Below the pieces are notes generated by a model that made no database searches, had not been told where the DNA came from, and worked only from the letters and a program-made list of their open reading frames with translations. 64,000 nt of DNA from Cocleimonas flava (GTDB lineage Bacteria > Pseudomonadota > Gammaproteobacteria > Thiotrichales > Thiotrichaceae), in NCBI RefSeq assembly GCF_004339015.1, contig NZ_SMFQ01000002.1, positions 497,351 through 561,350 on the forward strand, in the 5' to 3' direction. Positions 38,283-64,000 of this stretch are shown here, piece by piece (the first letter of the stretch is position 1; each line of letters begins with the position of its first letter). The position numbers and the translations under genes are program-made.

Positions 38283-38533
38283 GATTGGCTTATTTGTATT
38301 CAATAAATATTTATACGTCAATATGATTTGCTTCTTTAAATCTTGAAATGAACTATTCTCTTTAGTAATTTACTAATCAAGACGACTTATTCACTTTATT
38401 TAAGGTATCTTATACAAAAAGGCTTCTCGTTATTGAAGATAATGTAGTCTTGCTAATAAATAACTTTGCGCGAGATACATTAATAGATATTACGGTATTT
38501 ACCTATAACATTTTTTCTTTTGCAAAAAAACAT

Positions 38534-40471
38534 ATGTCTCTTATGAAATCAAACCTAAAAAAACATATCTTAAACAGATCCCGGTCTGAAAAGCGCCTTT
38601 TTCTCATAGCTTTAGATATTTTTCTTATTCCTCTGATTTTATTTATTAGCTTTTATAGCACTGAAAAACAGACTTTTCTTCAAAATAGTTATAACTGGCT
38701 AGTCTTTCCCTTATCCATATTGGTCGCTATTCCTATTTACATGAAGATGGGACTTTACCGAGCAATTTTAAAGTATTTCCGTAGTCATGCTATTGGTTCG
38801 ATTTTGATAGCTACTTTAATAGCTGCGGTAGTTTGGGTGGGTGCACTCGTACTCCTAAACTTTCAACATATACCTTCTTCTGTTGTACTTCTCTATTGGC
38901 TTGGCACCTTCATGGTTATTACAGTAACCAGATTAAGCGCACAACAATGGCTTTATGGTGAAATTTCAAAAAATGCGTCAGCAAAAAAAGTATTAATTTA
39001 TGGCGCTGGTTCTGCTGGCTCTCAATTAGCGATGGTTCTTAAGCCTGACCCATCATATTCGCTTATTGGGTTCATTGATGATGATAAAAGCTTAGAGGGC
39101 TGGAATGTATTGGGATTGAAGGTTTTCTCTCCATTACAGTTACCCGCGTCTATTGAAAAATATTGTGTGGATGAAGTTATATTAGCTTTGCCATCTGCGA
39201 ATAGAAGCAATCGTCAATTAATTCTAGAACAATTAGAAAAGTTACCAGTTCACGTCCGTAGCATCCCTGCTTTTGCAGATTTAGTCAGTGGCAAATTACA
39301 AACCGCGGATATCAATGATATCGATATTGATGATTTATTAGGAAGAAACATTGTTGAGCCTGATAGCTCTTTATTACCCATCAATATCACCAATAAAGTG
39401 ATTATGGTTACCGGCGCAGGTGGATCTATAGGTTCAGAACTTTGCCGACAGATAATTAGCTTAGCGCCAAAAAAATTAATTTTATTAGAGCAAAGTGAGT
39501 TTGCTTTATACAAAATAGAACAGGAGCTGGATGCGCTTATTAAAAAAAGTGAAAACCATATTGAATTAAATCGTGTACTTGGTTCCGTCACTAATGAAGT
39601 ATTGTTAAAGCGTTTATTTCAAAACAAAACTATTCAAACTATTTATCATGCCGCTGCTTACAAGCATGTACCTCTCGTTGAAGAAAACCCTGTTGCTGGA
39701 TTAGCTAATAATGTTTTTGGCACACAATTGCTAGCCGAAACTGCGATGAACGCTAATGCCGAATCATTCATTCTTATTTCCACCGACAAAGCTGTTCGAC
39801 CAACAAATGTTATGGGTTGCTCTAAACGTATTGCTGAGCTAATACTTCAAGCGCTTGCCGAAAAGCCAGAAAGCAAAACAGTCTTTACCATGGTCCGATT
39901 TGGCAATGTATTAGGCTCATCTGGGTCAGTTGTTCCTAAGTTCAGACAACAGATAAAAGAAGGTGGACCAATAACGGTCACACATAAAGATATCACTCGC
40001 TTCTTTATGTCTATTCCAGAAGCGGTACAGCTCGTCATTCAAGCGGGCGCCATGGCAAAAGGTGGAGATGTTTTTGTATTAGATATGGGTGAATCTGTCA
40101 AAATAGCCGACCTTGCAGAAAAAATGATTAAACTATCTGGCTTATCCGTTAAAAACGATAAAAACCCGGATGGTGACATAGCCATTCAATTTAATGGTTT
40201 ACGACCTGGCGAAAAGCTTTATGAAGAGCTATTGATTGGTGAAAATGTGAGTGGTACGAAACATCAGCGTATTATGCGTGCAAATGAAGAGTTTATGACC
40301 TGGAGTACTCTTGAGCAAAAATTAGATAAACTAGAAAAAATAATGCAGGTTGATAATATCTTAGAAATTAAATCACAATTAACTAATATTGTTGATGGAT
40401 ATAAACCATGGCTCGAAAAACCGATCATGAGTGATAATAAAAATGTTATACCTATCACTAAAAGTTACTAA
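38534..40471 (+). CDS. WbpM/FlaA1-type membrane nucleotide-sugar 4,6-dehydratase
   Basis: About 645 residues. A frame is open from a TTG at 38450, but I prefer ATG 38534 (or 38543), which gives a short polar leader before four membrane helices (about residues 15-130). A first Rossmann domain follows (KVLIYGAGSAGSQLA) and then the catalytic SDR domain: MVTGAGGSIGSELCRQI, HAAAYKHVPLVEEN, STDKAVRPTNVMGCSK (S-M-K triad), RFGNVLGSSGSVVPKF and RPGEKLYEELLIGENV. Such enzymes make UDP-4-keto-6-deoxy-GlcNAc at the inner membrane, often for the first sugar of the repeat unit. It is the long form of the short dehydratase at 24968. A repeat arm follows its stop. Confidence 0.9.
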   Translation: MSLMKSNLKKHILNRSRSEKRLFLIALDIFLIPLILFISFYSTEKQTFLQNSYNWLVFPLSILVAIPIYMKMGLYRAILKYFRSHAIGSILIATLIAAVVWVGALVLLNFQHIPSSVVLLYWLGTFMVITVTRLSAQQWLYGEISKNASAKKVLIYGAGSAGSQLAMVLKPDPSYSLIGFIDDDKSLEGWNVLGLKVFSPLQLPASIEKYCVDEVILALPSANRSNRQLILEQLEKLPVHVRSIPAFADLVSGKLQTADINDIDIDDLLGRNIVEPDSSLLPINITNKVIMVTGAGGSIGSELCRQIISLAPKKLILLEQSEFALYKIEQELDALIKKSENHIELNRVLGSVTNEVLLKRLFQNKTIQTIYHAAAYKHVPLVEENPVAGLANNVFGTQLLAETAMNANAESFILISTDKAVRPTNVMGCSKRIAELILQALAEKPESKTVFTMVRFGNVLGSSGSVVPKFRQQIKEGGPITVTHKDITRFFMSIPEAVQLVIQAGAMAKGGDVFVLDMGESVKIADLAEKMIKLSGLSVKNDKNPDGDIAIQFNGLRPGEKLYEELLIGENVSGTKHQRIMRANEEFMTWSTLEQKLDKLEKIMQVDNILEIKSQLTNIVDGYKPWLEKPIMSDNKNVIPITKSY

Positions 40472-40476
40472 TTTAA

Positions 40477-40503
40477 CACCCCCCTACTTATAAGCACTTT
40501 TTT
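40477..40503 (+). repeat. Dispersed C-rich repeat, single arm
   Basis: CACCCCCCTACTT, then ATAAGCAC and T-tract; same sequence as the right arm at 58876. It lies 6 bp after the dehydratase stop in terminator-like orientation, separating it from wza. Confidence 0.75.
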
Positions 40504-40660
40504 ATTTTTAATACGCAAAAACTTTATACGATAGTTTAATCTAAATACATCGATTAAATGAAATGAGGTTTTTAACGTGATCTTTGTAATTACTGATTAT
40601 TACCTATAAAATCCCCCATGTTTTGCATCTCCTTCTTTTAATATTCTAGTAAACCTATTT

Positions 40661-42022
40661 ATGAAAAAACTTTGCCGAGCACTTTTAACATTTACTGCTG
40701 TCATCTCTCTTGTTGGTTGTTCATTTAGCCCTGGCGTTCCAGGCTTAAGCTCGAAATCTAGCCGATACGAGAAAGCCCAAAAAGAAGGAGTTGATTATAA
40801 ACTGGTTGTTATCGACAGAAAAATGATTCAAAGCCAAAAACCTTTTAATTATGCAAACTATATAACTAATAAGAAAAAACGCTACCAGAGCTATGCTTCT
40901 GATACTGAAAAAAGTTCAAGCCCAATAAGAAAGCCTCATCGTAATAACCATACCAGTCCTACCAAAACAACAGGTGCTGTTAGCTTTGCGGGGGTTTCTG
41001 CTGATGACGTGAAATCAAATTATCAATACTTTATCGGTGATCGCGATATTTTGAGTATTACTGTATGGGATCATCCTGAACTCACTATTCCCGCTGGCGA
41101 TGCTCCTGCCACTCACGACGTAGGTAATGATGGTAAGTTTTACTTTCCTTATGCTGGCAAAATTCAAGCTACAGGCAGAACGGTAGAGGATGTCAGAAAA
41201 GATCTTGAGAAAAAATTACAAACGTTTATCGCTAAACCACAAGTAAGTGTAAGAGTAGCTAGCTTTCGCAGCCAAAAAGCCTATATTTCTGGCGCAGTAC
41301 AGCAGCCAAACACCCTTGCAATTTCTGATACACCACTAACGGTTAGAGACCTTATATCTAGAAGTGGCGGTGTTATTTCTAGAAAATATACCGGTCAAGC
41401 TTCTTTGCAGCGTGGTAATAATACGATATCGATCGATTTAAATCGTATGCTAAAGTTTAATGACAATAGACAGAATTTTATTCTACGAAATGGCGATAGA
41501 CTACATGTGGTTGAAATTGATGAATTGGACGAGTGGAAAAAAGAGCTAGATCAAGCAATAAACAAGGAACTAATCCTTAATCCTATTCGATTGCAATTCG
41601 AACTAGAAAAAGAAAAGGCCATAGCAAGACAAAAGAAAGAACTTGAAAGAGAGCTGAAGTCTGAACAGGCAAAAGTTTTTGTCATGGGAGAAATAAACAA
41701 ACCAGGGACTGTCAAATATCAAATTGAAGACGGCATGACATTAGCCGAAGCCATTAACGATGCAGGCAGCCTAAATGAAGATACGGTAAACCCCAAGGGC
41801 ATTTTTGTTATACGCCAAGAGTCATCGAATGATTCCATACCAACGGTTTATCAGCTTCCTATCGCCTCTGTTCATTCCATGTTATTAGCCGAACAGTTTG
41901 ATATTAGACCGAGAGACATTGTCTATGTTACTGCTACACCTTCAATCAGATGGAATAGAGTCCTAGGTTTACTATTACCTTCTCTCACTATTTTGAATAC
42001 CTTTGAAAACCTTACGAACTAA
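40661..42022 (+). CDS. wza: Wza-like outer-membrane polysaccharide export lipoprotein
   Basis: 453 residues. A lipoprotein signal ends at the lipobox LVGC (Cys near residue 20). A polysaccharide-export (PES) domain follows: YFIGDRDILSITVWDHPELT and GNDGKFYFPYAGKIQATGRTVEDVRKDL. Then SLBB-type domains: AYISGAVQQPNTLAI and VFVMGEINKPGTVKYQIEDG. The C-terminus (WNRVLGLLLPSLTIL) supplies the amphipathic helix of the octameric pore. Wza conducts capsule through the outer membrane together with Wzc. Oddly, residues about 287-337 form a very charged helical stretch (Glu/Lys-rich) inserted before the last SLBB domain. It is followed at 8 bp by wzb and then wzc, the canonical order. Confidence 0.92.
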   Translation: MKKLCRALLTFTAVISLVGCSFSPGVPGLSSKSSRYEKAQKEGVDYKLVVIDRKMIQSQKPFNYANYITNKKKRYQSYASDTEKSSSPIRKPHRNNHTSPTKTTGAVSFAGVSADDVKSNYQYFIGDRDILSITVWDHPELTIPAGDAPATHDVGNDGKFYFPYAGKIQATGRTVEDVRKDLEKKLQTFIAKPQVSVRVASFRSQKAYISGAVQQPNTLAISDTPLTVRDLISRSGGVISRKYTGQASLQRGNNTISIDLNRMLKFNDNRQNFILRNGDRLHVVEIDELDEWKKELDQAINKELILNPIRLQFELEKEKAIARQKKELERELKSEQAKVFVMGEINKPGTVKYQIEDGMTLAEAINDAGSLNEDTVNPKGIFVIRQESSNDSIPTVYQLPIASVHSMLLAEQFDIRPRDIVYVTATPSIRWNRVLGLLLPSLTILNTFENLTN

Positions 42023-42030
42023 AATAAATT

Positions 42031-42462
42031 ATGTTTAATAATGTAATGATGGTGTGCATAGGTAATATATGCCGCAGCCCCATGGCAGAAGCTATTTTGC
42101 AACATAACAGACCTGAGTTAAAAGTATATTCATCAGGCTTGGGGGCTCTGTCAGGCAAGCCGGCAGACCCCAGCACGATGAAAATTCTGTCGGAAATAAA
42201 TATCGATTTTGATCATGTAGCACAACAAATTAACAGCGTTCTGGTAAAAAACGCTGACATTATTCTGACCATGGAAGACAAACATATTCAAAGCATCATC
42301 TCTCAGTTTCCTGAGTCGCGCGGCAAAGTTCACTTGATTGGGAAGTGGCAGAATAATGAACAAATTCCTGATCCTTACAAAAAAGATTTTGAAGCATTTC
42401 AGGAATCTTATCGTTTAATAAATAAAGGCCTAAAAACCTGGCAAGAAAAACTGTGGGATTAG
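42031..42462 (+). CDS. wzb: Low-molecular-weight protein-tyrosine phosphatase Wzb
   Basis: 143 residues. The active-site loop is MVCIGNICRSPMAE (C-x5-R-S) near the N-terminus and the general acid is in PDPYKKD near residue 115, both needed for LMW-PTP catalysis. Wzb removes phosphate from the tyrosine cluster of its partner kinase Wzc, controlling polymer length and export. It starts 8 bp after wza and ends 55 bp before wzc. Length is normal. Confidence 0.93.
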   Translation: MFNNVMMVCIGNICRSPMAEAILQHNRPELKVYSSGLGALSGKPADPSTMKILSEINIDFDHVAQQINSVLVKNADIILTMEDKHIQSIISQFPESRGKVHLIGKWQNNEQIPDPYKKDFEAFQESYRLINKGLKTWQEKLWD

Positions 42463-42517
42463 ATTTAAAAGTATTTATTAATTCCAATTTAAAGATGACT
42501 GAGAACATACACATTAA

Positions 42518-44722
42518 ATGAGCACTACAAATCAACAATATTCAGATAATGACGAAATTGATCTAAGAGAATTATTAACTACTTTATTAGATGGTAAGTG
42601 GTTAATTCTTTCTTTAATAATTGCATCATTATTGTTAGCTTTAATTTATGCTTTTGGTGCAACACCTATCTACAGAGCAGACACACTTCTACAAATAGAA
42701 GCAGAAAAAGCCGGAATTCCTGGTCTTGAAGAAATTACGGGGCTTGGCAGTGACAACGCTTCAGCCAGTACCGAATTACAAATCTTAAAATCTAGAAAGA
42801 TTATAGGAAAAGCCGTTCATGATTTAAAGCTGGACATTATTGCCACCCCAAAAAAAATCCCGCTATTTAGCAATTTGAGCAAGCGCTTCCTGAAAGAAAG
42901 TGATATCAATTTTGTACCATTTAATATTTCATGGCTGAGCAGTTATTCCTGGGCTTATGAAAGCATAAAAATCAATCGCCTTGAAGTTGGAAAAAACTAT
43001 ATTAATGAGCCATTGACATTAATCAGCCATGAGTTCGGGGAATATAGTCTGTACCATGATGACAAGCTTCTTTTAACAGGAAAAGTTGGCAAACTAGAAT
43101 CTAGTTCTGATGGCTTATTAGAAATAAATATACAGGAACTGAATGCTAGCGATGGTAAAGAGTTTTCAATTAATAAACTAAGTAATTACCAAGCCATCGT
43201 AGAATTACAGAAAAAAATTGGAGCATCTGAACAAGGTAAAAACACAGGAATTATCAACCTTGCACTAGAAGGTGAAAATCAAGAGCAAATTTTAGATATT
43301 TTGGACAATGTTTCTAATTCTTATTTATTACAAAACAAATCACGCAGCTCTGAAGAAGCCAGCAATGCGCTTAATTTTCTTAATGAGCAAATTAAACCCG
43401 TCAAAGAACGATCAGAAATAGCTGAAGCAGCCTTAAAAGAATATAGAACGAATAATCGTACTGCCGATATGTCAATGGAAACTCAGACTATATTAAAAGT
43501 AGTCGCTGATATAGATACTCAACTCCAACAATTATCCTTAAGAAGAGATCAGTTAAACTTAAAATACACGGCTAATCACCCGACCTTGACATCACTCGCA
43601 TCGCAAGAAACCAAGTTAAATAAAAGACGAAATGAAACGCTTTCTAAGATAACTGAACTTCCTGAAACACAACAGCAACTTCTAAAATTAGAGGGCGATT
43701 ACACAGTTGCCAATACGATCTATGTTGATTTATTGAATAAAATTCAAGAGTTCAAAATAGCTAAAGCCAGTAATGTTGGTAATGTTTATATTCTTGATAC
43801 AGCTGCTGTAAACGAAGAACCAGTAAAACCTAAGAAAGCATTAATCTTAGCACTGGGTTCATTACTGGGTCTCATGCTAGGGATACTAATCATATTCCTC
43901 AAAAAAGCACTATACTATAAAGTCAACAATCCTGAAATACTTGAAGAACAAATTGGCTTACCAGTCTACGCAACCATACCTTTATCTAAAGGTGTTAAAT
44001 TAACTGGCGGCCTTAAAAAGAAGAAACAAAAACAAAAAACTTTGCTAGCGATTGAAGATAATAACGACCCTGCTATTGAAAGCTTAAGAAGTCTGAGAAC
44101 AAGCCTTCACTTCGCATTATTAGAAGCCAAAAATAATATTGTGATGATCACAGGCCCTTCTCCCGGAATTGGAAAGTCTTTTATCTCGTCTAACTTAGCC
44201 GCCGTCATATCAGGAAGCGATCAACGTGTTTTGCTTATTGATGCGGATATGAGAAAAGGATATTTACACAATCTAGTCAATGTTCCTATAACACCAGGCT
44301 TATCCGATTTAATCAGCGAGAAAAGCACAATTGAAGACTCCATACATACTTATAAATGCAACGGAAATAGCTTCGACGTATTAACTCGAGGTCAAACGCC
44401 TCCCAACCCATCAGAGTTATTGATGCATCAAAACTTTGAGAAGTTACTTACTGAGTTATCTGGTAACTATGACTTAATTTTAATTGATACCCCACCAATC
44501 CATGCGGTAACTGACCCGACTATAGTGGGTCGTTTATCGGGTGTGGTGTTCATGGTAGTTCGTCAAGATATGCATGCGATGAAAGAGATTGAACATGCCG
44601 TGAAGCGATTAAGTAATACAGGTATTGAAACCAAAGGATTTATCTTTAATGGCTATGATGCCAAGAAGAATAGAAATGCTTATGGCTACCAATCTTATTA
44701 TGGAGAGTATCAATCAGATTAG
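42518..44722 (+). CDS. wzc: Wzc-type polysaccharide co-polymerase and BY-kinase
   Basis: 734 residues. Two membrane segments (near 30-50 and 445-465) frame a periplasmic Wzz-like domain. A cytoplasmic bacterial tyrosine kinase follows: Walker A TGPSPGIGKSFISSN near residue 550, Walker A' VLLIDADMRKG and Walker B LILIDTPP. The C-terminus carries a tyrosine cluster (AYGYQSYYGEY) that is autophosphorylated and dephosphorylated by Wzb. Wzc spans the inner membrane and couples with Wza to set chain length and secrete the polymer. It ends at a large hairpin (44736-44806) that closes the plus-strand run. Confidence 0.95.
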   Translation: MSTTNQQYSDNDEIDLRELLTTLLDGKWLILSLIIASLLLALIYAFGATPIYRADTLLQIEAEKAGIPGLEEITGLGSDNASASTELQILKSRKIIGKAVHDLKLDIIATPKKIPLFSNLSKRFLKESDINFVPFNISWLSSYSWAYESIKINRLEVGKNYINEPLTLISHEFGEYSLYHDDKLLLTGKVGKLESSSDGLLEINIQELNASDGKEFSINKLSNYQAIVELQKKIGASEQGKNTGIINLALEGENQEQILDILDNVSNSYLLQNKSRSSEEASNALNFLNEQIKPVKERSEIAEAALKEYRTNNRTADMSMETQTILKVVADIDTQLQQLSLRRDQLNLKYTANHPTLTSLASQETKLNKRRNETLSKITELPETQQQLLKLEGDYTVANTIYVDLLNKIQEFKIAKASNVGNVYILDTAAVNEEPVKPKKALILALGSLLGLMLGILIIFLKKALYYKVNNPEILEEQIGLPVYATIPLSKGVKLTGGLKKKKQKQKTLLAIEDNNDPAIESLRSLRTSLHFALLEAKNNIVMITGPSPGIGKSFISSNLAAVISGSDQRVLLIDADMRKGYLHNLVNVPITPGLSDLISEKSTIEDSIHTYKCNGNSFDVLTRGQTPPNPSELLMHQNFEKLLTELSGNYDLILIDTPPIHAVTDPTIVGRLSGVVFMVVRQDMHAMKEIEHAVKRLSNTGIETKGFIFNGYDAKKNRNAYGYQSYYGEYQSD

Positions 44723-58836: not shown

Positions 58837-58902
58837 AAAAGTGCCTATAAGTAGGGGGGTGCATTAAATTAAATACACCCCCCTACTTATAAGCACTTTT
58901 TT
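58834..58902. repeat. Inverted pair of dispersed C-rich repeats
   Basis: Left arm 58834-58861 and right arm 58876-58902, joined by an AT-rich 14-nt spacer. Each arm has C6-TACTTATA then (A/G)GCAC and a T-run. Here the C-rich ends face inward, opposite to the pair at 1219-1276. As RNA from the minus strand it makes a hairpin with a T-tail after the GTPase gene (58997). Confidence 0.8.
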
Positions 58903-58996: not shown

Positions 58997-60430
58997 TTAT
59001 GAGTCTTCTTTACCGGATGGACTGGTATATCGATCATTCAAGGTTTGGACGAATTTGTCGATATCACTGCGTATACCGTCTAATCTTTTACGTACACCTG
59101 TACCCCAACCGACTGGATTCTTTCTGAAAATACTGCGCCACCAGCGTGTATTTTTTCTAAACGCATTGGCGATATTTCCATAAGGCTCGTCAGTGCTTAA
59201 TTTTTTTGCAACGCCATTCACTAATTTTGAACGGACCATCTGATGAATCAGATAGAAGATCACAACTATCGCAGCTAACACCCCGACACCTAATATTTTG
59301 TTTTGTTTCAAAGCATCCAGCCATGGAGGATTAAAGACCATTCCCTGCCAGTAACCCGCAATCACTGAAAGTGTTATCAAGCCTAAAATGATAGGAACAA
59401 AAACCACCACATCGGTGATTAACACTCTTTTCTTCCAACGTTGCATAGCCAATTTTACTTGAGGCACTGCTTGTTGCTCTATTTGATTAGAGAGTGACTC
59501 CATGCTTCCGATAATTCGATACACTCTTTCCACATCAATATCTTCCATACGTTTAGATATTTCTGCGTAGTCATTATTTCGCTTGTTTAAATATCGCTCC
59601 CAAACGGCTTTATTCTCAACAGGAGCTGCTAAGTCAGTATTAAAAATAACGTAGAAACGGCCGGCATTTAAACCACTTTGCACCAACGCTTTTTGCCATG
59701 ACGCCACAATATCTTCCATATTGTCGTCATTTGCCGATGTATCAATCTGATTCAAGATAAACATGAATTTGCTGTTATCACTGCGCTTTTGTGAACCTTG
59801 CACAAGATGCTCCAGAGTATCTTGCATTGCTCCTGGCTCTGGATGTCTTGCATCAAATAGCACCAACACCAAGTCCGAAAGATCAATAATATGATCAGTC
59901 AGTTTTAAGGTTTCTTTTCGTTGCTCATCCGCGTCAAAACCTGGAGAGTCGATAACTATCTTTCCGCGAAGTTTTTCGCTTGGCGTTGCTTTCATTTGCA
60001 AATAGTTATCAATTCGAGAGCCTTCGCCCTGCGTAACAGATTCAATGTCTTCGCTGATTTGATAAAATGGAAAACGAGGATCACCATCTAAAGCGATGCC
60101 CGGCAATGTACGGACTTTCGAATCTCTACTGTAAGTGAGAACCGTAAATTTATCATCGACTGCCTGATTTCCAGAGTCTTGAACATTAAGCCCCAGATAC
60201 GAATTGATGAAACTTGATTTACCAGCGGAGAACGTTCCTAAAATTGAAACCAGTGGCCACCACGATATCTGGGTAGCATACGATTGATCTGCAGCTAACA
60301 ACCCCATTTTTTGAGAAATTTTATCGAGCTTTCTATAACGATCTACGACTGATACTAATACAGGGTTTTCGGTCTCAAGGTGTTTTTGCAAAAGCTCTAG
60401 TCGGTCTTGCATTCTCTTTGCGGGTGTCAT
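58997..60430 (-). CDS. Membrane-anchored dynamin/EHD-like GTPase
   Basis: 477 residues. G1 loop ILGTFSAGKSSFINSYLG near residue 65, G3 IVIDSPGFDADEQRKE near 160 and G4 FILNQIDTS near 227. The FDARHPEPGAMQDTLEHL segment resembles EHD/dynamin-superfamily GTPases, which bind and remodel membranes. Two transmembrane helices (VVVFVPIILGLITLSVIAGYW at about 335-355; ILGVGVLAAIVVIFYL at about 378-393) anchor it, followed by a basic C-terminal domain with Trp-rich segments. It is the last gene of a six-gene minus-strand unit. The exact action (fusion, fission or scaffolding) is not readable. Confidence 0.8.
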   Translation of the reverse strand: MTPAKRMQDRLELLQKHLETENPVLVSVVDRYRKLDKISQKMGLLAADQSYATQISWWPLVSILGTFSAGKSSFINSYLGLNVQDSGNQAVDDKFTVLTYSRDSKVRTLPGIALDGDPRFPFYQISEDIESVTQGEGSRIDNYLQMKATPSEKLRGKIVIDSPGFDADEQRKETLKLTDHIIDLSDLVLVLFDARHPEPGAMQDTLEHLVQGSQKRSDNSKFMFILNQIDTSANDDNMEDIVASWQKALVQSGLNAGRFYVIFNTDLAAPVENKAVWERYLNKRNNDYAEISKRMEDIDVERVYRIIGSMESLSNQIEQQAVPQVKLAMQRWKKRVLITDVVVFVPIILGLITLSVIAGYWQGMVFNPPWLDALKQNKILGVGVLAAIVVIFYLIHQMVRSKLVNGVAKKLSTDEPYGNIANAFRKNTRWWRSIFRKNPVGWGTGVRKRLDGIRSDIDKFVQTLNDRYTSPSGKEDS

Positions 60431-60501
60431 GAAATTTCCTTCCGAGTCACTTTAGACATCTGGTTTTACTGGTTAAAACGGGTGCAACCAAGCATTTAGG
60501 C

Positions 60502-61233
60502 TTAGTTCATAGAAATCGCAGGCATAGCCAAGTAAGGGCTATTTATTCGTGCAGGACCTTGATCATTAGACATGGATTGCTGGAAAAGAGCTGGCTGCAC
60601 TTGATAACTCGAACCTGCTGGTGATACTGGAACAGGCATTGGAATATCCTGCTGATAATTTGAAACAGGTTGTTCTGCAGGATAGGCGAAATATGATTGT
60701 GGCAAAGGCGCTCTAGAACCCGGGAAAGGCATGCTCTGACTGTTCTTCCAAGGCAAAAAGTTATTCATAAAGCTTAATGGAGTAGAAATATTCTTATTCA
60801 TACTCCACATATCTCTTTGCATATTGTTAGTAGATGCCGCCATGTCGTAAGTAGCTGTTCGCATTCCACCAATACTCGTTACCATTTCATCGGTATTCTG
60901 CGTCATATTGGTCAAGTTACTCGACATGCTATTGGTAGAATCTACCAGACTATCCATTTTTACAGACATCTGATTCATGTCACCAGATATTGAGCTCATA
61001 TTATTGTCTAGTGAACCGCTCATGTGCGCGATTGTATCAGCCATTCTGTTTACGTCAGATGTTAACGAGAATATAAGAAAAAAGCCAAAAATAGAAAGCA
61101 CAAAGAAAGCAAACATAGATGGATAGACCAACATCTGCATACGTTTATGAGTTGCTGCAGCCTTCATTTCAAATTCTTGAAGTTCGTTTTCCATTTCAAG
61201 AATGTAATCTCTATGTAGTTCGCTCTTAGCCAT
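60502..61233 (-). CDS. Single-pass membrane protein with Met/Ser-rich coiled coil, unknown function
   Basis: 243 residues. A charged cytoplasmic helix (YILEMENELQEFEMKAAATHKRMQM) precedes one membrane segment (VYPSMFAFFVLSIFGFFLIFSL, about 37-58). A long heptad-like region follows, extraordinarily rich in Met, Asn and Ser with repeated units such as NRMADTIAHMSGSLDNNMSS, then a Pro/Gln-rich tail (MPVPVSPAG). No enzymatic motif. The repeats resemble coiled-coil sensory or scaffolding proteins. It is 17 bp after the TPR gene and 71 bp before the GTPase gene, so it is part of the same operon. Confidence 0.75.
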   Translation of the reverse strand: MAKSELHRDYILEMENELQEFEMKAAATHKRMQMLVYPSMFAFFVLSIFGFFLIFSLTSDVNRMADTIAHMSGSLDNNMSSISGDMNQMSVKMDSLVDSTNSMSSNLTNMTQNTDEMVTSIGGMRTATYDMAASTNNMQRDMWSMNKNISTPLSFMNNFLPWKNSQSMPFPGSRAPLPQSYFAYPAEQPVSNYQQDIPMPVPVSPAGSSYQVQPALFQQSMSNDQGPARINSPYLAMPAISMN

Positions 61234-61250
61234 ATTTTCCTAATATTTGA

Positions 61251-62192
61251 TTATTGTTTTACAGCTTGTAATTTCTTGTGTATTTCTGCTGCGCGATCAG
61301 GGTAAAACAGACCGATAAAACCTATCATATTTGCGACTCTTTCAGCATTACCTTGCTCAATCATTGGTATCGCGATCTCTGAATATAATTGTGCAGCTTT
61401 TTTAGGGTAGCCTTGTCGCCAATATACGTTACCTAATTCGCCACGATACTCGATCACATTTGGTTCTAATTCGATTAACTGCGAATATATTTGAGAAGCC
61501 TCTTCCAAGCCGTTATTCCAATAAGCTTCGCGGGCCATTAACAACATTTCTTCAGTACTTGATTGCCCTAAATCTTCAATGCTTTTAGCATCTGCCGTAG
61601 CTTCTTCGGGTTTAGGTGTTTCTTCGATTGTAGATGCAGCTGCGACTGCAACATCAGCTTGAGTACCTGTTTTACCCGCTGTTGTTTCTACAACTGCTTG
61701 AGGAGCTTCTGCTTCAGTTGCTTCAGCTTCGGCGATTTTCTTCTTAGTCGATGAGCTACTATACCCACCAACAACCAAACCATCAGGGTATGATCTACTC
61801 GTTACTGTTGTTGAATCTATTGTTGCCTTTTTAACAATTTCTTCACTTACTGGAGCAGTTTTGTTATCTACCACAGCAGATTGCTCTTCAGTTTGCGTAG
61901 ATTTTGTATTTTCTGTTTGAGTGCTTGCGGCTACTTCAGTTTCGACCTCAACTATCTCTTCTACAACTACTTTCTTTTTATCTGATTCGATTAAAGCAGA
62001 AGTCACTGCAGAAGGTGTTTCTAGTGTCTTAGTCGTGTGAGTAGTTTCAACTTGCTGTTGTTTATTAGCATGATCATCTACATGAACATCCTCTTTAGCA
62101 CCGTGATTACCAATAGATAAAAGGATTGCTATCGCACCCACGAACCATGTCGCAAGGATAGGATGCCCCATTAACCAACGAACAATATACAT
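61251..62192 (-). CDS. Membrane-anchored TPR-repeat protein
   Basis: 313 residues. One N-terminal membrane segment (HPILATWFVGAIAILLSIG) is followed by a long low-complexity region rich in Thr, Glu, Val and Ala, reading like a flexible linker (VEEIVEVETEVAAST and ATEAEAPQAVVE). A C-terminal TPR block of about 100 residues follows: EEMLLMAREAYWNNGLEEASQIYSQLIELEP then IEYRGELGNVYWRQGYPKKAAQLYSEI. TPRs mediate protein contacts. Periplasmic orientation of the TPR domain is likely but not certain. It lies 71 bp after the ParA gene and 17 bp before the coiled-coil membrane protein gene. Confidence 0.8.
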   Translation of the reverse strand: MYIVRWLMGHPILATWFVGAIAILLSIGNHGAKEDVHVDDHANKQQQVETTHTTKTLETPSAVTSALIESDKKKVVVEEIVEVETEVAASTQTENTKSTQTEEQSAVVDNKTAPVSEEIVKKATIDSTTVTSRSYPDGLVVGGYSSSSTKKKIAEAEATEAEAPQAVVETTAGKTGTQADVAVAAASTIEETPKPEEATADAKSIEDLGQSSTEEMLLMAREAYWNNGLEEASQIYSQLIELEPNVIEYRGELGNVYWRQGYPKKAAQLYSEIAIPMIEQGNAERVANMIGFIGLFYPDRAAEIHKKLQAVKQ

Positions 62193-62263
62193 TTAATAAA
62201 TCTCCTTAAAATAATATGTGTCTATTACACGAGTTTATACTAGAAATACTATTCTAGTATAAA

Positions 62264-62884
62264 CTAATACAATAGCTCTCCTAATTCTTCTATTTCTGCA
62301 GCGGCCTTTGATTTTGCGTCCATTTCGAACACTGCCATGCCCTCACTAAACGAGCGCCTATATGCTGTTCTTTGATAAAGTCTAGGCTCTATCATTTTAA
62401 TTCCTGACAAACTGTTTAATGCGTCAAAAGCATCATCTGTTTCCCTCACTGCAGTATGCGTATCTGAGCGATTCATGAAACCAATAATTTCTGGAACTAC
62501 ACCAGTTTTTCTAACGTTACTTATTAATTTTAAAAAACGTTGAGTTGACCATACATCTGCCTGACTTGGTGCAACTGGAATCACGATTCTATCTGCGCGC
62601 TGAAGACCTGTATTCATCGCTTCATTATCTGATATACCGATATCTACGATGACTTCAGTATGTTTACCTTCACTACCTAGCTCATTCGCATTATGAATAG
62701 GTTCCAGAGTAGGCATATGACCATCTTCGGTTCTTATTTCCAGAGCATCCGTAATTGTTGCTTGCGGATCTAAATCATAAACAGACACATGTACATTTCT
62801 TCGTGTGGCAACCCAAATAGATAAATTAAAGGCGACAGTACTTTTACCTGTACCACCTTTTAAGTTACCTATAACCGTTATCAT
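62264..62884 (-). CDS. Orphan ParA/MinD-type ATPase
   Basis: 206 residues. The deviant Walker A motif is VIGNLKGGTGKSTVAFNLS near residue 5, then SVYDLDPQATITDAL (A') and VIVDIGISDNEA in place of the Walker B/switch region. RADRIVIPVAPSQADVWSTQRF and the FMNRSDTHTAVRE region are ParA-like. ParA ATPases form dynamic DNA- or membrane-associated dimers that position cargo such as plasmids, chromosomes or protein clusters. No ParB or parS-like partner is visible in the window. Its 4-nt overlap with the upstream proline-rich gene shows tight coupling. Confidence 0.87.
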   Translation of the reverse strand: MITVIGNLKGGTGKSTVAFNLSIWVATRRNVHVSVYDLDPQATITDALEIRTEDGHMPTLEPIHNANELGSEGKHTEVIVDIGISDNEAMNTGLQRADRIVIPVAPSQADVWSTQRFLKLISNVRKTGVVPEIIGFMNRSDTHTAVRETDDAFDALNSLSGIKMIEPRLYQRTAYRRSFSEGMAVFEMDAKSKAAAEIEELGELLY

Positions 62885-63798
62885 TTACTTTGACCTTCCA
62901 ACTCTTTATTTTCTAATTCTGAATGATCTTTCTTCATAGCCTTGTTTTGTGAAGGTAACTTCATACCTTGTTGCCCCCATTGATTGGGAATTGGCGCAAA
63001 GTAGTAACTACCATTTAACTGCGGCTGTTGAGGAAAATGATAATTCGGATAAACAGGCATAGGAACATATCTATATTGCTGCATATACCTGACACCATTT
63101 GGGTTACCAGGCATCTGCATCCAAATTGGTTGACCATTAAGTTGCGTTTTAGGGCTTTCTTTCTTTAAGTTATGACCCTCAGGAGCAACTGGCATTTCCG
63201 GCTTTTGCGGTTTAGCTGTTAATTTATTGCTTGGTAGTTGTGGCGTCTTTTTTAGTTCAGGTTTTAAACGACGAATTTCAGGAGCAAAAGGCTTAACTGG
63301 TTTTTTGGCCGTTACTTCGGCAGTACTTTTAACAGGAGCCTTTATTTCTGGCTTCTTCATAGAGGAATTATCAAGCTTAGGAGCAACTGGTGCTTTTTCT
63401 GTTTGCACTGGTTTTTCTATCAAACTCTCCGGTGCTTTTGGCGCTTCAAGCTGAGGTGATAATTGAGGTGCTTGCGGTTTATTTAATGTTCCTGCAGTAC
63501 TTTTCGAAAAAGGCCCAGGAGGAGGAAGCACAGAAGACTTTAATGTAGACTTGGCATCAGAAGTAGCAGTAGCAACACTAGCTTCAATGCTTTCTGTTAA
63601 TTCTATAGTTACTTCATCTTTAGGCGAATCCTCTTTGACGAGGATTTCTACAGTCGTTTCATTAACACTTATTGATTGGTTTTTTTCCAAAGTCGACTGT
63701 TTATTATCCGCGCTACCCGTTCCAGTCATTAATATCATTACAGAAGTTACTACTGTTGCAACGACAGCAGTGAGTGCTCCTTTTTTTGCATCATTCAT
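62881..63798 (-). CDS. Proline-rich single-pass membrane protein, unknown function
   Basis: 305 residues. A short cytoplasmic start (MNDAKKGA) leads to one membrane segment (LTAVVATVVTSVMILMTG). It is then almost wholly Pro/Lys/Ala-rich low complexity, for example KAPVAPKLDNSSMKKP and EIKAPVKSTAEVTAKKPV, ending in a Gln/Tyr/Pro-rich region (YRYVPMPVYPNYHFPQQPQ). The build is like a TonB-type spacer that crosses the periplasm, but the conserved C-terminal TonB domain is absent. It overlaps the ParA gene by 4 nt and begins 18 bp after the gene cut by the window edge. Confidence 0.7.
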   Translation of the reverse strand: MNDAKKGALTAVVATVVTSVMILMTGTGSADNKQSTLEKNQSISVNETTVEILVKEDSPKDEVTIELTESIEASVATATSDAKSTLKSSVLPPPGPFSKSTAGTLNKPQAPQLSPQLEAPKAPESLIEKPVQTEKAPVAPKLDNSSMKKPEIKAPVKSTAEVTAKKPVKPFAPEIRRLKPELKKTPQLPSNKLTAKPQKPEMPVAPEGHNLKKESPKTQLNGQPIWMQMPGNPNGVRYMQQYRYVPMPVYPNYHFPQQPQLNGSYYFAPIPNQWGQQGMKLPSQNKAMKKDHSELENKELEGQSK

Positions 63799-63816
63799 AT
63801 TCTTACTATACCTACT

Positions 63817-64000
63817 CTATATATCATTTTTTAAACGTATTCCTCTACGTTTTGGTTTTGAACTAGCCGCACTCTTCTTTGTTTCTGTTGGCTTCGTTGA
63901 TGTTTTTGGTTTGGTTTTTGGTTTGGCTGTTGTTTTTGCTTCAGTCTTCGTCTTTGGCTTCGTCTTTGACTTAGTTTTCGACGATGCCTTATTCTTGGCA
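63817..64000 (-). CDS. Lysine-rich C-terminal tail of a gene running off the window (partial)
   Basis: A minus-strand frame ends with TAG at 63817-63819 and continues past the right edge. The visible 60 residues are a repeated Lys/Thr/Pro/Ala tail (KTKSKTKPKTKTEAKTTAKP) ending KRRGIRLKNDI, like the tail of histone H1-type or other DNA-binding proteins. The start and main domain are not in the window, so the function is unknown. It is only 18 bp upstream of the proline-rich gene and is probably the first or an early gene of this operon. Confidence 0.65.
   Translation of the reverse strand, partial: AKNKASSKTKSKTKPKTKTEAKTTAKPKTKPKTSTKPTETKKSAASSKPKRRGIRLKNDI

Follow-up and report, generated by a model that had tools for sequence, protein, structure and literature searches.

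What does an operon do that unites an orphan ParA ATPase, a transporter and a dynamin-like GTPase? The question arose at the right-hand end of a 64,000-nucleotide stretch of the Cocleimonas flava genome (contig NZ_SMFQ01000002.1, forward-strand positions 497,351 to 561,350; hereafter the window), where the original prediction, made from the letters alone, had proposed a six-gene machine for envelope positioning or membrane shaping. Comparative analysis revealed a strong link between this operon and sulfur globules, which the operon probably builds or positions: it is nearly confined to globule-storing bacteria and often includes the gene for the globule coat. The host lies within the Thiotrichaceae, and its relatives are therefore sulfur-storing bacteria.

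The rightward extension suggested in the original prediction revealed the rest of a resistance-nodulation-division (RND) permease gene and a gene for its membrane fusion protein (MFP) adaptor. Window and neighbouring DNA together hold seven genes, all on the minus strand, in the order MFP adaptor–RND permease–Pro-rich protein–ParA–tetratricopeptide (TPR) protein–coiled-coil (CC) protein–EHD-like GTPase. Five complete genes span window positions 58997-63798; from the GTPase gene onwards they are separated by 71, 17 and 71 nt, the Pro-rich and ParA genes overlap by 4 nt, and 18 nt lead to the RND gene. No spacing between the seven codirectional genes exceeds 71 nt. The features are listed below, where a position in the extended locus L009 plus 57649 gives the window position.

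58845..58892, minus strand: strong intrinsic terminator with a 20-pair stem and a T-rich tail, ending the operon about 100 nt past the GTPase gene (L009:1243-1196)
58997..60430, minus strand: dynamin/EHD-like GTPase, 477 aa (Dynamin_N 4.8e-16), with two predicted transmembrane (TM) segments, a hairpin, near the C-terminus
60502..61233, minus strand: CC, single-TM coiled-coil protein with a conserved alignment motif, a single helix in the AlphaFold2 (AF2) model, kept in both classes
61251..62192, minus strand: TPR protein with an N-terminal TM segment, an acidic low-complexity linker and a C-terminal TPR (2e-4)
62264..62884, minus strand: orphan ParA ATPase, 206 aa (CbiA/ParA 6.9e-12), with the deviant Walker A KGGTGKST
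62881..63798, minus strand: Pro-rich exported or anchored protein with a PPPGPF motif and P-X2-P periodicity, directly 3' of the RND gene
63817..64000, minus strand: C-terminal tail of the RND permease, end sequence KPKRRGIRLKNDI; the gene runs on to window coordinate 67707 (L009:6168-10058)
67771-68994, beyond the window: MFP adaptor, 5' of the RND permease gene (L009:10122-11345)

All the tightly spaced genes described earlier are thus present, and the orphan ParA, the membrane-anchored TPR protein, the Met/Ser-rich coiled-coil membrane protein and the dynamin/EHD-type GTPase with two membrane helices were recognized correctly. Two readings had to be revised: the frame taken for a partial Lys-rich protein exists but is the tail of the 1296-aa permease, not a separate gene, and the six-gene cluster becomes an operon of seven once the permease and its adaptor are read; the second, discussed below, concerns the Pro-rich protein.

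The link to sulfur globules was quantified in 369 gammaproteobacterial genomes, drawn evenly. The Pfam sulfur globule protein family SGP (PF17228) was matched in 55 of them, 49 with the operon's ParA and the remaining six with its GTPase, giving an odds ratio of 152 for the ParA/SGP association (p=4e-40). ParA still predicted SGP among genomes carrying dsrA (odds ratio 37, p=3e-15), and at the family level 25 of the 27 SGP families were ParA-positive (p=7e-22, about 176 families). The dsrA gene was itself found in 54/65 ParA-positive genomes versus 63/304 others (p=2e-21), and soxB in 8 of the 11 ParA-positive genomes lacking dsrA versus 1 of 17 negatives checked. The association is also physical: in 14 genomes parA has an SGP gene no more than about 3 kb away, and SGP genes were identified inside the operon itself in loci L120 (6.5e-15) and L161 (2.4e-6) and in a second class of bacteria (1.3e-17). 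The Pfam SGP model is compositionally biased; it matched in none of 14 control genomes. Within the host's order, the presence of ParA follows that of dsrA (p=0.002); a weaker correlation exists with SGP when a lax threshold is applied (p=0.0045).

In the window's own genome dsrA is present, and no SGP-family gene was seen in its operon. Far from the operon (L192:1255-1836, G000:C1 near 383200), this genome encodes a secreted Gly/Asn/Tyr-rich protein of 193 aa that reached E=0.001 against SGP in a single-protein scan. It is probably a divergent sulfur-globule protein.

The second line of evidence concerns the permease. With an ACR_tran match of 1.1e-147 it has the architecture of an RND HAE1 permease, and it scores far below the cut-offs of curated multidrug-pump equivalogs. 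Its core is followed by a cytoplasmic tail of 150-340 aa, low in complexity and mostly basic, whose sequence and length vary widely among homologues and which ends in an invariant terminal RRGI(R/K/Q)L. Wherever the RND end could be read, operon loci of the host's order had this motif (21/21), as did all the second-class loci that include an RND gene (8/8). Outside the host's order, it occurred in 34 of 35 ParA-positive genomes with a readable RND end, compared with one of eight ParA-negative ones (Fisher p=1.9e-6). In the sole ParA-positive miss, G118, the motif stands in an adjacent short frame (RRGIKLKPLDDE), which suggests a frameshift. Three of the ParA-negative genomes without the motif (G141, G266 and G369) retain an operon with RND, SGP, DUF4412, TPR, CC and GTPase genes and lack both ParA and the tail. 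As a natural knockout, they suggest that ParA and the tail belong to a single module that can be dispensed with and whose job is spatial rather than globule making.

Two side observations concern the transporter. RND paralogues of about 1100 aa (56-57% identity), too short for a tail, are encoded in the ParA-positive genomes G077 (C30) and G315 (C6). Close to the hairpin region, the MFP adaptor (L009:10122-11345) and its homologues have an insert rich in Met, Gly and Pro (PGMGLPSMMDIFMTRP) that is unusual, recurs in some distant relatives and may alter docking of an outer-membrane factor.

The co-occurrence check proposed with the original prediction gave a clear result. The GTPase was detected in 90/369 genomes and ParA in 65/369, with 56 carrying both (Fisher 8e-33), and 31 of 54 located pairs lay no more than 6 kb apart. 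The operon was found in about 32 gammaproteobacterial families and in the second class. Its gene order is alike in most genomes of the host's order; outside that order, extra genes appear between RND and ParA, encoding an SGP-matching secreted Gly/Asn/Tyr/Trp-rich protein and a DUF4412 protein, with a DUF302 gene later on, which gives the extended order MFP-RND-Pro-SGP-DUF4412-ParA-TPR-DUF302-CC-GTPase. An arrangement that recurs in an order, in the class around it and in a second class as well is not due to chance, and homologues are syntenic in relatives rather than scattered.

For the second class, a phylum-wide draw yielded 34 ParA-positive genomes outside Gammaproteobacteria, from which ten loci were fetched. 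Most of these read MFP-RND-…-DUF4412-SGP-ParA-CC, and neither GTPase nor TPR was detected beside ParA in the ten. This gene content defines a core of MFP, RND, globule-coat proteins, ParA and CC; GTPase and TPR, the latter kept in gammaproteobacterial operons, look like gammaproteobacterial additions. In the Leucothrix group, with some Cocleimonas (L043, L048, L052, L056, L064, L075 and L081), TPR and GTPase are kept, as is the Pro-rich gene where read, while MFP, RND, ParA and CC are gone together.

ParA belongs to a narrow family, found in the 65 gammaproteobacterial genomes and in 34 of other classes. Its matches are sharply bimodal, the weakest of the gammaproteobacterial sample being 3e-54, and the deviant Walker A KGGxGKST is invariant across 18 homologues. 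The CbiA, AAA_31 and MipZ Pfam matches exceed their cut-offs. No ParB was found among the operon genes in either class.

The CC protein has a predicted cytoplasmic N-terminus, a Met/Ser-rich coiled coil outside and a disordered Pro-rich end; its alignment (A2) shows an invariant VYP...AF..L...GF.L, and the AF2 model is one long helix (4-156), which would run through the membrane. CC as a ParA-specific partner was not favoured, as CC persists in ParA-negative operons. The Pro-rich protein begins with an export signal or anchor followed by PPPGPF; the gene had been correctly described as Pro-rich, but its product may be secreted instead of single-pass, given an A-x-A-like site between GSA and DNK. 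Proline pairs at lag 3 number 13 versus 4.4 expected (p<0.0005), and almost all copies examined have a gene of like kind directly 3' of RND. In Allochromatium vinosum the most abundant globule protein, SgpD, is P-X2-P rich and localized on globules, and its gene adjoins one for a 'hydrophobic/amphiphilic exporter' (PMC10386293), a parallel that supports the link to globules. Identity of the Pro-rich gene with sgpD is a lead. NCBIfam contained no model for the SGP, DUF4412, DUF302 or Pro-rich proteins.

The GTPase has a dynamin-type G domain and a helical stalk, placing it in the dynamin superfamily, EHD-like. Its AF2 model (pLDDT 76.5) had EHD4 as the best fold match (Foldseek 2.4e-12; VIA Z 21.9 with 341 residues aligned at 4.1 Å). 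Pfam detected no EH domain, and the C-terminus of the model consists of TM helices and a short helix. The GTPase was found in 60/63 genomes of the host's order and in 46/46 of the good-quality ones. In L112, L113, L119, L124, L128 and L131, the same family occurs as a lone gene apart from other operon genes. The GTPase was rejected as a sulfur marker, since GTPase-only genomes showed no dsrA or SGP bias.

On balance, we consider it reasonably probable that this is a sulfur-globule organizing operon in which ParA is docked by the RND tail and the GTPase remodels the membrane. Globules are located periplasmically or within infoldings (invaginations) of the cytoplasmic membrane (PMC10386293, PMC12481199, PMC11172852). 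Being outside the cytoplasm, they need a trans-membrane linker to the nucleoid if ParA positions them. RND with the CC, Pro-rich and coat proteins fits this role. ParA-family partners generally touch the ATPase through a short basic terminal peptide, and the first 20 residues of McdB suffice (PMC12204374); by analogy, we infer a contact between ParA and the tail.

A specific mechanism of trans-membrane organelle positioning, which we put forward tentatively and at slightly less than an even chance, would run as follows. ParA-ATP would coat the nucleoid, and the terminal RRGI(R/K)LK peptide of the flexible cytoplasmic tail of RND, with its MFP adaptor, would bind ParA, as McdB docks McdA, and stimulate its release. 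Globule sites would be tied to the RND complexes through the Pro-rich, coiled-coil, TPR and sulfur-globule-coat proteins, so that complexes and attached sites would spread along the nucleoid and be shared between daughters, much like carboxysomes under McdA/McdB. The EHD-like GTPase, whose resemblance to EHD proteins fits membrane remodelling, would shape the pocket where the inner membrane bulges inward around the periplasmic globule.

Several observations weigh against this reading. The GTPase occurs without ParA in 34 genomes that show no sulfur bias (p=0.44); it is thus not dedicated to globules and must have another, more general role. Sixteen ParA-positive genomes have no Pfam SGP match at E<=0.001, the window's own included (only E=0.004 genome-wide), and all our counts treat related genomes as independent. 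Genome G149, 88% complete, carries the tail motif and no ParA was found in it, and locus L061:2151-5414, from a member of the host's order, reads MFP-ParA-GTPase with no RND, TPR or CC in between, breaking the RND/ParA pairing. A. vinosum showed no phenotype when SgpD was lost, and sulfide does not regulate the gene after sgpD (PMC10386293).

The strongest competing account takes the operon for an RND pump, placed at the poles or at regular intervals, whose exports would be hydrophobic sulfur species, lipids or coat components. ParA would position the pump, and globules would simply form where material is delivered, with no physical link to the cargo. The RND/MFP pair and the ParA-linked tail are indeed the most constant parts, and it is the pump, rather than a globule protein, that bears the motif. 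No cognate outer-membrane factor was found among the operon genes, to which that search was confined, and a TM4 Asp pair, readable in several RND homologues, fits an active transporter. However, the operon includes coat genes, ParA still goes with SGP when only dsrA-positive genomes are considered, and SGP-containing operons without ParA or tail indicate that transport needs no ParA; we therefore regard this account as unlikely, if still worth serious attention. Less probable again is the general machine for envelope positioning or membrane shaping, serving filament growth or gliding for instance, with a purely ecological sulfur correlation. Many hosts in the order do form filaments, and the Leucothrix group retains GTPase, TPR and Pro-rich genes while lacking ParA, RND and CC. 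Yet what that group has lost is precisely ParA, RND and CC, and it gave no SGP match; the operon, whose range takes in some 32 families of Gammaproteobacteria as well as a second class, follows SGP and dsr/sox in its distribution and has SGP genes among its members. The original prediction was right about a conserved, co-inherited set, but it overlooked the central RND/MFP pump, and the associations point to sulfur globules over generic shaping.

It is scarcely credible that this ParA is a normal ATPase of chromosome or plasmid partition that came to lie here by chance. Its best curated match is ParA_partition (NF041546, 1e-34), with ParF and McdA as relatives in the PDB, but the score of 119.8 falls short of the model cut-off of 180, the gene is chromosomal, the operon encodes no ParB, and the position of parA within the operon is the same in both classes. 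Plasmid partition was rejected on this conserved chromosomal synteny; a ParB next to ParA was not encountered.

The operon is flanked by general secretion pseudopilin genes upstream and hemL/rpoH downstream. A promoter scan gave background level, and an Rfam search returned no matches. Elsewhere in the window (38450-44722), exopolysaccharide-type genes (nucleotide-sugar epimerase, Wza-like export protein, Wzc-like tyrosine kinase) mark the end of a lower-GC stretch.

As the original prediction had supposed, no described system with this gene set was found in the published literature, no known partition or motility system matched its parts, and no description of the operon turned up in literature searched for ParA, RND or dynamin in connection with sulfur globules. 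In a 2025 paper on intracellular carbonate, ParA homologues are considered speculatively as a means of positioning inclusions, and no genes are named. With McdA/McdB, the operon shares an orphan ParA with sequence similarity to McdA and ParF, an organelle-like cargo and a candidate partner with a short basic terminal peptide; unlike there, the cargo lies outside the cytoplasm and the candidate partner is the tail of a 1296-aa permease, not a small cytosolic protein. SgpA-D of A. vinosum (PF17228) are represented by the SGP genes inside many operon copies, and SgpD perhaps by the P-X2-P spacing of the Pro-rich gene next to RND, compared by description, not sequence; however, the literature searched assigns neither a ParA nor a pump nor a GTPase to globules. 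EHD ATPases and bacterial dynamin-like proteins (IniA, BDLP, SynDLP) resemble the GTPase in Dynamin_N and, for the whole model, in a fold nearest EHD4, whereas the operon's enzyme has two predicted TM segments near its C-terminus and no EH domain. AcrAB-type tripartite pumps likewise pair an ACR_tran permease with an MFP adaptor, but the operon's RND adds a long cytoplasmic tail with its end motif, and the operon encodes no outer-membrane factor.

Few bacterial inclusions are as conspicuous as intracellular sulfur globules, which can reach a third of cell dry weight, and besides coat proteins no machinery that forms, holds or inherits them was found in the literature searched. With seven to ten candidate genes and a single short peptide motif, the operon makes the globule question testable. 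It also suggests that a ParA-type system could position a cargo outside the cytoplasm by way of a membrane transporter; if true, this would be, to our knowledge, the first ParA system with a transporter partner and a mineral-store cargo.

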